Source of the DNA: Mycobacteriales bacterium
GTDB lineage: Bacteria > Actinomycetota > Actinomycetes > JAFAQI01 > DASSKL01
Assembly: GCA_035690485.1 (NCBI GenBank)
Contig: DASSKL010000086.1
Location: 1-37,710 of the forward strand
Length of the DNA: 37,710 nt
Reading direction: 5' to 3'
Shown here: one piece after another, positions 10,971 to 37,710 of the stretch
Layout: each line of letters starts with the position of its first letter
How positions within the stretch are numbered: the stretch's first letter is position 1
Notes under the pieces: generated by a model
What the model was told of the DNA's origin: nothing
What the model saw: the letters and a program-made list of their open reading frames with translations, nothing else
The model's database searches: none
Made by a program: the position numbers and the translations under genes

Positions 10971-12968
10971 GTGGACGACCGAGAGGCTGCACGACAGGTC
11001 ACCGAGGCGGCTCAGGCGCCGGCCACCGTGGTCAACCCGCTGATCGGCGGCGGCTCCTCGGTCGTCAGCGTCAGGGGCGCCGACGTCGGCGCCTCCCGCG
11101 AGCGGCAGCGCCGCCGCCGGCTGACCCGGATCGCCGTGATCGTCGGCCTCCCGGCGCTCGCGCTGTGGGTGCAGATCCTGCGCGGCAACCCCGTCGACAT
11201 CTTCCAGTTCCCCAGCATCGACCCGCTGTGGGCGCTGATGTTCCTGTTCGTCCTGGCCCTCGTGCTGGCGATGGTGCTGCCCTACGCGGTCAACGGCCGG
11301 TCGCCGCACGTCCTCTACCGGCCCGAGCAGATCGACGTACGCCTCGACGACGTCGTCGGCATCGACCAGGTCAAGGAAGAGGTCGTCCGCTCGCTCAACC
11401 TCTTCCTCGCCCACAAGACCTTCGCGGCCGAGATGGGCGGCACCCCGCGGCGCGGCCTGCTCTTCGAGGGCCTGCCGGGCACCGGCAAGACCTACACCGC
11501 CAAGGCGATGGCGCGCGAGGCCGGCGTGCCGTTCCTGTTCGTCTCCGCCACGAGCTTCCAGAACATGTTCTACGGCGCCACCGCGCGCCGGATCCGCAAG
11601 TACTTCAAGGAGCTGCGCAAGGTCGCCCGCGCCGAGGGCGGCGCGATCGGCTTCATCGAGGAGATCGACGCGATCGCCACGACCCGCTCCGGGATGCGCG
11701 CCACGCCGATGCCGCAGGCGGCCCGGATGGTCTCGGCCTGCGGCGGTCTCGAGGGCCTGCCGACGTCCTACGCCGGGAGCACCTCTTCCCACGCCGACGG
11801 CGGCCTGGTCACCAACGCCTACATGAGCGAGGGCACCGGCGGCGTCGTCAACGAGCTGCTCGTGCAGCTGCAGTCCTTCGACGAGCCGATGGGCTTCGAA
11901 CGGGTGACCGCCAAGATCGTCGATGCGATCAACCTGCTGCTGCCGCTGGAGCGCCAGATCCAGAAGAAGCAGCCGGCGAAGAGCAACATCCTGCTGATCG
12001 CGGCGACGAACCGGGCGGACAACCTCGACCCGGCGCTGCTGCGCCCCGGGCGCTTCGACAAGCGGCTGACCTTCGAGCTGCCCGACAAGGGCGGCCGGCG
12101 GGCGCTGATCGACCACTTCCTCACGCTCAAGGCGCACCACGAGGAGCTCGACGACCACGAGCTGCGCGACGCGCTGGCCGCGGTGACCCAGCAGTACACC
12201 CCGGTGATGATCGAGCACCTCTTCGACGAGGCGCTGGTCAACGCCCTGCGCCGCGGTGACTCGATGGCGACCTGGAAGGACGTCGAGCACGCCCGGCTCA
12301 CCGAGGAGGTCGGCATCGGCCAGCCGGTGGGCTACACCGAGCACGAGAAGCGGCTCATCGCCACGCACGAGTCCGGGCACGCGACCGCCGCCTACCTCGT
12401 CGCCCCCGAGCGACGGCTGGAGATCCTCACGATCATCAAGCGGCGCAACGCGCTGGGGCTGCTCGCGCACGGCGACCGGCACGACGTCTTCACCCGCTCG
12501 CGGTCGGAGATGCTCGCCCTGATCCGCATCGCGCTGGCCGGCCAGTGCGCCGAGGAGATCTTCTTCGGTGACATCTCGACCGGCCCGGGCGGCGACCTGC
12601 TCTACGCGACCAACGTCGCCGCCGAGATGGTCGGCGCGTGCGGCATGACCGACACGCTGGTGTCCTACGCCGCCGTCCAGAACAGCGGCTTCAACGACAC
12701 CAACATCGTCGGCCGGGTGCTGGCCGACGCCGACGGCCGGGCCCGGGTCGAGGCGCTGCTGCAGGAGCAGAAGACCGGGGTGAAGGCGCTGCTCGAGGCC
12801 AACCGGCCGCTCGTCGAGGCCTTGCGCGACGCGCTGCTCGACCGTCACGAGCTGATCGGCCGGGAGATCACCGACGTGCTGGCGAGTGCCGGTGCCCCGA
12901 CCTGGCCGGCCGCGCCGACCAGCGGTGTGATCGACCTGACCGCCGACACCCCGGTCGCCACCTCCTAG
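10971..12968 (+). CDS. FtsH-like membrane AAA+ zinc metalloprotease, divergent
   Basis: A 665-residue protein with two N-terminal membrane helices (about 52-70 and 85-106), an AAA+ ATPase domain and an M41-like protease domain. Walker A is GLPGTGKT (167-174). Walker B reads IGFIEEIDA (226-234), with Glu where FtsH has the Asp of FIDEIDA. The second region of homology AATNRADNLDPALLRPGRFD (344-363) is intact with its arginine. HESGH at 466-470 is the zinc site, and D542 in TGPGGD matches the third FtsH ligand. Between Walker B and the second region of homology lies about 50-60 residues more than in FtsH, including a Gly/Ser/Thr-rich part (240-290). It likely degrades membrane or cytosolic substrates with ATP. 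The GTG start follows a GGGGG stretch. Monocistronic. It is probably a second, specialised FtsH rather than the essential one. Confidence 0.85.
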   Translation: MDDREAARQVTEAAQAPATVVNPLIGGGSSVVSVRGADVGASRERQRRRRLTRIAVIVGLPALALWVQILRGNPVDIFQFPSIDPLWALMFLFVLALVLAMVLPYAVNGRSPHVLYRPEQIDVRLDDVVGIDQVKEEVVRSLNLFLAHKTFAAEMGGTPRRGLLFEGLPGTGKTYTAKAMAREAGVPFLFVSATSFQNMFYGATARRIRKYFKELRKVARAEGGAIGFIEEIDAIATTRSGMRATPMPQAARMVSACGGLEGLPTSYAGSTSSHADGGLVTNAYMSEGTGGVVNELLVQLQSFDEPMGFERVTAKIVDAINLLLPLERQIQKKQPAKSNILLIAATNRADNLDPALLRPGRFDKRLTFELPDKGGRRALIDHFLTLKAHHEELDDHELRDALAAVTQQYTPVMIEHLFDEALVNALRRGDSMATWKDVEHARLTEEVGIGQPVGYTEHEKRLIATHESGHATAAYLVAPERRLEILTIIKRRNALGLLAHGDRHDVFTRSRSEMLALIRIALAGQCAEEIFFGDISTGPGGDLLYATNVAAEMVGACGMTDTLVSYAAVQNSGFNDTNIVGRVLADADGRARVEALLQEQKTGVKALLEANRPLVEALRDALLDRHELIGREITDVLASAGAPTWPAAPTSGVIDLTADTPVATS

Positions 12969-35741: not shown

Positions 35742-36736
35742 CCGACACCGCGGCCCGAGTGGCGGTCCTCGTCCCCTGCCGCGACGAGGCCGCGACCGTC
35801 GCGCAGGTCGTCTTCGACTTCCAGCACGCGCTGCCGGGTGCGGTCGTCTACGTCTACGACAACGCCTCGGCCGACGACACCGGCGCCCGGGCGAAGGCGG
35901 CCGGCGCCGTCGTACGCCGCGAGATGCGCCCCGGCAAGGGCACGGTCGTGCGCCGGATGTTCGCCGACATCGACGCCGACATCTACGTGCTGGTCGACGG
36001 CGACGGCACCTACGACGCCGACGCCGCGCCGGGCATGATCCGGATGCTGGTCGAGGACCAGCTCGACATGGTCGTCGGCGTACGACGGGAGAGCGAGGAG
36101 GACGCCTACCGCAACGGCCACCGGCTGGGCAACGCGTTCTTCAGCCGGCTCCTGCGGATGCTGTTCGGCGGGGTGTTCGCCGACGTGTTCAGCGGCTACC
36201 GGGTGATGAGCCGGCGGCTGGTCAAGTCCTTCCCGGTCGCGTCGGGCGGTTTCGAGATCGAGACCGAGCTGACGGCGCACGCGCTCGACGTGCGGGCGGC
36301 GTGCGCGGAGATGCCCACGGTCTACCGCTCGCGGCCGGAGGGCTCGGAGAGCAAGCTGCGCACGTGGCGCGACGGCTGGCGGATCATGATGGCCGCGGTC
36401 GTCTTCTACAAGGAGCTTCGGCCGTTCCGGTTCTTCGGGCTGGTGGCGATGCTGCTGACCGCGCTGGCGATCGCGCTCGGCGTCCCGGTGATCGCGGAGT
36501 TCGTGCGCACGGGGCTGGTGCCGCAGATGCCGACCGCGATCCTCGCCGCGGCGATCCAGGTCGCGGCCGTGGTCGCCGGCACCTCGGGCGTGGTGCTCGA
36601 CTCGATCGGCCGCGGCCGCCGCGAGACGAAGCTGCTGACCTACCTCTCGCTGCCCAGCGCGGCCGACCTGGTCGTGCCGGGGGTCAGCGAGCGGCCGGCG
36701 AACCTGAAGGTCGCCGGCGGTTCCGGCGGCTCCTGA
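35738..36736 (+). CDS. Family 2 glycosyltransferase, DPM1/GtrB-like, with membrane helices
   Basis: A 332-residue protein with a GT-A catalytic domain (1-225): VAVLVPCRDEAATV, VYVYDNASADDT, and DGDGTYDAD as the metal/nucleotide DXD-type site; then GGVFADVFSGYRVMSRRLVKSFP and GGFEIETELTAHA. Two C-terminal helices (about 235-252 and 262-287) anchor it in the membrane. This architecture matches polyprenyl-phosphate sugar transferases, which supply lipid-linked sugars to GT-C enzymes; the DUF2142-type protein upstream could be the user. ATG start overlapping the csaB stop (ATGA). The last gene of the glycan cluster. Confidence 0.88.
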   Translation: MTDTAARVAVLVPCRDEAATVAQVVFDFQHALPGAVVYVYDNASADDTGARAKAAGAVVRREMRPGKGTVVRRMFADIDADIYVLVDGDGTYDADAAPGMIRMLVEDQLDMVVGVRRESEEDAYRNGHRLGNAFFSRLLRMLFGGVFADVFSGYRVMSRRLVKSFPVASGGFEIETELTAHALDVRAACAEMPTVYRSRPEGSESKLRTWRDGWRIMMAAVVFYKELRPFRFFGLVAMLLTALAIALGVPVIAEFVRTGLVPQMPTAILAAAIQVAAVVAGTSGVVLDSIGRGRRETKLLTYLSLPSAADLVVPGVSERPANLKVAGGSGGS

Positions 36737-36803
36737 CCCGCGTCGCGCACACCTGATCTCCTGGCTGCACAAAGTGTTGATCGACTGTCCGGTTTGCCCC
36801 GTT

Positions 36804-37040
36804 TCAGACGCTCAGCCGGCAACCACAACTGCAACCAGAAGATCGTTGTGGAGGTCTCGGGATCGCTGGGTCAGTCGGCCAGCAGGGCGACGAGACGCGC
36901 ACGATCTGCTGGTGCTGGTGGGTAGGGCTGGGCGACATCACGAACCGGCCGTCGATGTACTCGCCACGGGCCTCCCCGCCGAGGCTCTCGTAGTCGGCCC
37001 AGGACAGCGGGCGCCCCACCGGAGCCTGCGCGGAGATCAC
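36804..37040 (-). pseudogene. Decayed Uma2 (DUF820) family gene fragment
   Basis: The minus-strand frame starting GTG at 37040 begins like a Uma2-family PD-(D/E)XK-like protein: [40 protein letters not shown]. Homology then stops; it resumes in another frame as [10 protein letters not shown] followed by a stop, so a frameshift and truncation have occurred. Intact Uma2 proteins are about 180-200 residues; only about 45-55 remain recognisable. The upstream promoter region now lies within the non-coding stretch. The family is often multi-copy in actinobacteria, and its function is poorly known. Confidence 0.7.
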
Positions 37041-37233
37041 CGCCGCCTCCTCTGCGGTCGACGGCCAGCGTACGACGGAAGCGCGAACAACTCCGGTGGT
37101 AACGGATCGGTCACGGAAGCGAACCGATCGTGTGTAACGGGCGTCTCACCCGGGTAGCGGGGGCTTCGAGATCGCCGCAAACCGGACGATAAGGTAGCAA
37201 CAGCAGGCCTTGCGCCTGGTGAGCGGCTCTCGG

Positions 37234-37318
37234 TAGCGTCCGCCAGTGGCGGTGTGGATCTACGACACGCCGTTGCCAGCGGATGCCACTGAGGGTGGGG
37301 GACGCGTCGTGGACGCTA
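37234..37318 (+). ncRNA. Candidate structured RNA element, nested stems
   Basis: TAGCGTCC (37234-37241) pairs perfectly with GGACGCTA (37311-37318). Inside it CAGTGGC (37244-37250) pairs perfectly with GCCACTG (37285-37291), and within that GGTGTG (37251-37256) pairs with CACGCC (37266-37271, one wobble). A second GGACGC at 37300-37305 could compete for GCGTCC, so two folds are possible. The strand is inferred from the gene downstream. Class unknown. Confidence 0.45.
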
Positions 37319-37514
37319 AGGTCACGATCTCGGGCGGTAGGTGGCGTTTGTGCGCGGCTTACCGTTCAGCAAGATCACCCTGATTCGAGGAACTCTCTCG
37401 TGGTCGGGTGAAACGATCGGACGGTCGGCCGCGATGTACGGGCTGGATCCGGAGCAGCCCATGCGTTGCGGCTGTGGTGGGTGTCCTGCCGCCGGACGGT
37501 CATTTGCAAGGCAC

Positions 37515-37533
37515 GAGCACGAAAGACGTGCTC
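37515..37533 (+). promoter_or_regulatory. Hairpin immediately before the last gene's ribosome-binding site
   Basis: GAGCACG and CGTGCTC form a 7-bp perfect stem with loop AAAGA. It ends 15 bases before AGGAGG (37549-37554). AAGG (37541-37544) and CCTT (37555-37558) further bracket the ribosome-binding site and could close it in a small hairpin. Together they may control translation. Confidence 0.4.
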
Positions 37534-37548
37534 GACGGTAAAGGTCTT

Positions 37549-37554
37549 AGGAGG
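37549..37554 (+). promoter_or_regulatory. Strong Shine-Dalgarno AGGAGG
   Basis: AGGAGG lies 7 bases before the ATG at 37562, the best ribosome-binding site of the window. It fixes the start of the truncated last gene. Confidence 0.85.
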
Positions 37555-37561
37555 CCTTCGT

Positions 37562-37710
37562 ATGACAGGAGCCAGCCGGCCCTCTGTGAGGGTAGGCAAG
37601 CGGACGCTGGCGGCGTTCGCAGCGGGCTCGATCGCCGTCCCCCTCAGCTTCGGCTTGATGGGTGGCACCGCGTTCGCAGCCGCGCAAGGCAGCAGCACGC
37701 CGCCTGCGCC
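37562..37710 (+). CDS. Secreted protein, N-terminal part only (cut by window end)
   Basis: The first 49 codons of a gene running off the right edge. The sequence begins MTGASRPSVRVGKRTLAAF, then a hydrophobic core (AAGSIAVPLSFGLMG) and GTAFAAAQGSS, a classic signal peptide with predicted cleavage after an AFA or AAA site (about residue 38-40), followed by a Ser/Thr/Pro-rich start of the mature protein. In actinobacteria, long structured leaders often precede secreted cell-wall hydrolases (Rpf, NlpC/P60), which is one possibility, but no catalytic domain is visible. Codon use is less biased than in neighbours. Its start is fixed by AGGAGG. Confidence 0.75.
   Translation, partial: MTGASRPSVRVGKRTLAAFAAGSIAVPLSFGLMGGTAFAAAQGSSTPPA

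Follow-up and report, generated by a model that had tools for sequence, protein, structure and literature searches.

Does the long non-coding stretch in front of a gene for an exported protein carry a structured RNA that controls this gene, and could such an RNA belong to a new riboswitch class, as an earlier note on the same DNA had considered possible? The window, that is, the whole stretch of DNA analysed, is one complete contig of 37710 bases, and the high-GC genome to which it belongs measures 3.13 Mb. Other genes on this contig include DUF2142, UDP-GlcNAc 2-epimerase, polysaccharide pyruvyl transferase and glycosyltransferase genes; judging by these and by its composition, the genome is probably actinobacterial. 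The long non-coding stretch ahead of AGGAGG and the ATG at 37562 is present as described, and AGGAGG lies seven bases 5' of the start codon. The 49 amino acids of the exported protein that are present gave no Pfam match, and a protein search with this N-terminus returned weak signal-peptide-like matches only. On the opposite side, a divergent ORF starts at 37040 and has its ribosome-binding site within the first bases of the interval 37041-37561. Its GC content by codon position over 36894-37040 (0.71/0.49/0.94) is coding-like, and with a frameshift seen by eye this Uma2-like fragment is probably a recent pseudogene. The features of the locus are collected in Table 1.

Table 1 Features at the 3' end of the window, in order of position.
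Feature	Position	Strand	Remarks
Divergent ORF fragment, Uma2-like N-terminus	36804-37040	-	Pfam Uma2 E 0.06, under cut-off
Segment without structure, probably promoter region	37041-37167	+	z about 0 on both strands
Possible ECF-sigma-type promoter match, GAACC-N16-CGTC	37121-37145	+	pattern scan, lead only
Candidate 5' strand of a long-range closing helix, pairing with 37551-37561	37157-37167	+	11 bp, several G-U
Domain I	37168-37331	+	closing helix GAGATC/GATCTC, three branches; predicted helix probabilities 0.82-0.99
15-bp hairpin	37332-37367	+	z -6.1, segment chosen from the fold
Domain II	37369-37507	+	GCAA/TTGC closing helix, hairpin 37375-37411, branched helix 37415-37501; predicted helix probabilities 0.78-1.00
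GC-rich 8-bp hairpin without T-run	37514-37534	+	z -4.8
Hairpin AAGGTCT-TAGG-AGGCCTT, half burying AGGAGG (37549-37554)	37541-37558	+	-6.5 kcal/mol predicted
Start of exported-protein gene	37562-37710	+	ATG, signal peptide MTGASRPSVRVGKRTLAAFAAGSIAVPLSFGLMGGTAFA-AAQG..., runs off contig end

We compared the predicted folding of the interval with that of dinucleotide shuffles. The interval 37041-37561 as a whole gave a z-score of -6.1, and 37168-37507 gave -6.5 on the + strand and -2.9 on the - strand; because the interval had been picked by eye for looking structured, these z-scores represent a selected and therefore biased test. All of the folding signal came from 37168 on. The preceding segment showed none (z 0.03 on + and 0.49 on -), and the parts that follow gave -5.5 on + and -3.8 on - for 37168-37331, -5.9 and -1.8 for 37332-37507, and -4.6 and -0.6 for 37369-37507. 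On the + strand, structure extends over about 37168-37534 only. The structured leader RNA proposed earlier is supported from 37168 on, where strand-specific folding excess and non-coding composition precede a strong ribosome-binding site, but not for a start at 37041. The strand asymmetry and the G-U pairs of the predicted fold (35 of 188 pairs) argue for an RNA rather than for DNA palindromes, and we consider it likely, on the basis of these predictions, that a structured RNA is real on the + strand.

Two backgrounds were used to place these values. Across the contig, 146 strand-tiles of 340 nt had a mean z of -0.56 (sd 1.07, minimum -4.4); the strongest-folding tile in the rest of the contig (12751-13090, + strand; z -4.4 with 25 shuffles) lies in a coding area. 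The same-genome background, comprising 166 strand-tiles from 83 non-coding-like windows found within 628 kb of sequence, had a mean z of -1.0 and an sd of 1.5. Its sole rival tile moved from z -6.3 at 12 shuffles to about -4.5 at 60. This tile, scored on the coding strand, is the groEL leader (L084:14706-15045, - strand), which carries a CIRCE-like DNA inverted repeat (TTAGCACTC...GAGTGCTAA). Base composition was informative as well: GC by codon position is flat over the structured region (0.64/0.61/0.68, compared with about 0.7/0.5/0.97 in neighbouring genes), and by this measure the region is non-coding. A small ORF at 37341-37541 was rejected as coding on the same flat profile.

The predicted fold consists of two domains separated by a hairpin, and most of its helices have probabilities of 0.8-1.0. 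The branches of domain I span 37174-37227, 37228-37294 and 37295-37325, the last of which is not significant by itself (z -0.7). The two largest hairpins each expose a 9-base loop that starts with GATC (37257-37265 and 37446-37454), and these loops could in principle contact each other. We also considered an internal duplication of the two 49-nt hairpins at 37237-37285 and 37426-37474, which are identical at 27 of 49 positions and share the 9-nt GATC loops; 74 of 300 shuffles did equally well, and the duplication was rejected.

A set of nested stems had previously been read by eye from this part of the sequence. Every word named for them is present (TAGCGTCC at 37234, GGACGCTA at 37311, CAGTGGC at 37244, GCCACTG at 37285, GGTGTG at 37251, CACGCC at 37266, and GGACGC at both 37300 and 37311), but the stable predicted fold is a different one. 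Imposing the complete set costs 28.7 kcal/mol and the outer 8-bp stem by itself 9.1 kcal/mol, and the nested stems were rejected as the main fold on energy. For the suggestion that GCGTCC chooses between two GGACGC partners, pairing with the copy at 37300 costs 11.2 kcal/mol, which is energetically poor; GCGTCCGC has GCGGATGC (37279-37286) as its partner in the predicted fold, which makes such a choice weak.

We then examined the accessibility of the ribosome-binding site. It had been described as bracketed by complementary bases, and its 3' half is indeed paired in a local hairpin (AAGGTCT/AGGCCTT), with a predicted opening cost of 5.2 kcal/mol; the site is half buried. A long-range helix between 37157-37167 and 37551-37561 would cover the 3' part of the site instead. 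If transcription starts at 37150, this helix has a predicted probability of 0.31 vs. 0.67 for the local hairpin, the two being nearly isoenergetic. A pairing as long arose in 16 of 300 shuffles (about 5%), and we treat the long-range helix as a lead near chance level. By the predicted energies and the shuffles, the alternative pairings that would tie the fold to a switch are poor or close to chance. The strand-specific folding excess, its limits, the non-coding composition and the partial burial of the ribosome-binding site are direct results of the computation.

Signals for the ends of the RNA were also sought. Just upstream of the structured part lies a match to GAACC-N16-CGTC, a pattern that we take, from general knowledge, to resemble ECF-sigma promoters; an RNA initiated from it would start near 37150. 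Scanning the 37.7 kb with this pattern yielded five matches on the + strand and one on the - strand, only one of them past 36700. The promoter scan found no sigma-70-type site, and the terminator scan found no terminator-like site in 36700-37710. The GC-rich hairpin at the 3' edge of the structure, which ends 14 bases 5' of the ribosome-binding site, lacks the T-run of an intrinsic terminator or attenuator.

We searched for relatives of the leader and for known families. No Rfam 15 family, among them riboswitches, introns, RNase P, 6S and tmRNA, reached its gathering score in the window; the earlier note had compared the leader by eye with c-di-AMP, cobalamin and SAM riboswitches and seen no convincing match. 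A permissive Rfam search (E up to 10) of 36730-37710 returned three chance-level matches, all far under threshold. ARAGORN identified no tRNA or tmRNA gene in the window. The leader is single-copy in its own genome, and blastn gave no match among plasmids and phages and no homologue among the genomes of the order (13) and the class (395); the low-E matches in the class were short, inside open frames and scattered as chance expects. Exact patterns matched four times in a collection of genome contigs, each time within an open reading frame, and none of four exact patterns matched in viral contigs. Covariance models of both domains, which were built from a single sequence and could miss distant relatives, placed only the query above chance in the 13 order genomes (permissive filters) and the 395 class genomes (strict filters), and the domain II model did likewise in 396 phylum genomes (strict filters). 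In the nearest relative within the order, as judged by the glycosyltransferase (G003, 50% identity), the 3.8 kb compared contained no equivalent leader and had other downstream genes. In the searched set, no other genome shares the genus or family of the present one, and 12 others share its order. Comparative work on new structured RNAs depends on representatives that show covariation (PMC2864571). Since this is the family's only genome, failing to find relatives says little for or against the RNA.

We tentatively favour, with a probability of roughly 45%, a lineage-specific structured 5' leader that would control translation of the exported-protein gene. The + strand from about 37150 to 37561 would be the 5' untranslated leader of the gene at 37562, and its part from about 37168 to 37534 would fold into a compact multi-domain RNA. 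AGGAGG would be held half closed, either by the local hairpin or by the longer helix with bases just 5' of domain I, and translation could change when access to the ribosome-binding site is altered by folding, by a metabolite or by a bound factor. Co-transcription with the gene, regulation and any trigger are steps that we infer. This leader is suggested by the larger sub-domains, each significant on the + strand and weaker on the - strand, and by the position of the ECF-type promoter match; the lack of a homologue in the 13 order, 395 class and 396 phylum genomes counts against it. A more elaborate version, which we hold to be unlikely, is an undescribed two-domain RNA of ~370 nt, restricted to a poorly sampled actinobacterium-like lineage, that may sense a ligand or condition and control translation of the exported protein by alternating between the local hairpin and the long-range helix over the ribosome-binding site. 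If real, the leader would be a large structured one from a lineage of which hardly any relatives have been sequenced, in a genome with c-di-GMP riboswitches ahead of other exported-protein genes, and could exemplify RNA control of the cell surface in a little-studied group. As a single sequence without relatives, it is so far a lead and does not amount to a class.

Other explanations account for part of the same evidence. The compact fold with its sharp limits and the GC-rich hairpin at its 3' edge would also suit the main rival, an independent gene for a non-coding RNA some 370 nt long (from 37168 to around 37535), trans-acting or structural, that merely lies beside the secreted-protein gene, and the two separate domains do fold without the ribosome-binding site. 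However, the hairpin is followed by neither a T-run nor a terminator call, just 14 bases separate it from the ribosome-binding site, and a single copy without relatives would be unusual for a trans-acting structural RNA; we regard such a gene as conceivable but rather unlikely. An undescribed class of metabolite-binding riboswitch would explain the multi-branch fold, the partly buried ribosome-binding site and the lack of an Rfam match, and c-di-GMP riboswitches do occur in the same genome. Known classes, however, have been recognised through many related representatives, whereas no homologue was found here; moreover, the switch pairing, as the earlier note drew it, is about 29 kcal/mol unfavourable, and one sequence reveals no conserved unpaired core. 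The new riboswitch class is possible but unsupported, and we consider it improbable.

Two further readings dispense with a functional RNA. The idea of a fold arisen by chance in decaying intergenic DNA gains from the absence of relatives, the selection of the interval by eye and a background sd of 1.5. Nevertheless, no other tile scored with adequate shuffles reaches the z of -6.5, which is about 3.7 background sd away from the mean, and several sub-domains are independently significant, leaving this explanation a small probability. It is also very improbable that we are dealing with a DNA-level element, such as a transposon or MITE remnant or a site of transfer or integration, with inverted repeats that fold incidentally as RNA. 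Such an element would fit the apparently decayed Uma2-like ORF fragment next to it and the GC content of the region (about 0.64, compared with a contig mean of 0.73), but not the strong strand asymmetry of folding and the many G-U pairs, nor the lack of a second genome copy and of any plasmid or phage match.

Finally, we compared the favoured leader with known RNA systems. Its likeness to large ornate bacterial RNAs such as OLE, GOLLD and ROOL (PMC12286853) is general only, lying in the large size, the long imperfect helices, the many G-U pairs and the several domains; it differs from them in having no Rfam match, in being a single sequence, in standing beside one gene and in showing no sign of a phage context. 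Within the same genome, there are c-di-GMP-I and c-di-GMP-II riboswitches, of which two precede genes for exported or surface proteins. One c-di-GMP-I riboswitch (L089:13925-14004, genome contig C1; 57.2 bits) lies some 60 bases 5' of a type IV pilin-like gene, with a pilC-like gene adjoining this locus. Another (L085:11177-11256, genome contig C10, 131177-131256; 56.8 bits) precedes an ORF (11331-12158) for a secreted protein, which by eye resembles the CAP/SCP family. A c-di-GMP-II-GAG riboswitch (L103:16274-16381, + strand, genome contig C16; 56.6 bits) had no obvious downstream gene that we recognised. Since c-di-GMP-I riboswitches precede the pilin-like and CAP-like genes, this genome seems to make use of RNA leaders on genes for exported proteins. 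The leader as a diverged c-di-GMP-I aptamer was rejected: with a model of the two Rfam-recognised aptamers of the same genome, whose members score 96-98 bits, the best match in 36730-37710 reached 5.7 bits with filters off and fell on the - strand. In Corynebacterium glutamicum, a cell wall-related peptidase is under c-di-AMP control via a riboswitch (PMC9960051). The c-di-AMP (ydaO/yuaA) leaders that Actinobacteria carry on genes for exported cell-wall enzymes are likewise structured RNAs upstream of an exported-protein gene in a high-GC genome (PMC9960051), whereas the present leader has no Rfam match to their model, is about 370 nt long and has two domains. Overall, the leader resembles riboswitch leaders on exported-protein genes in position and architecture only.
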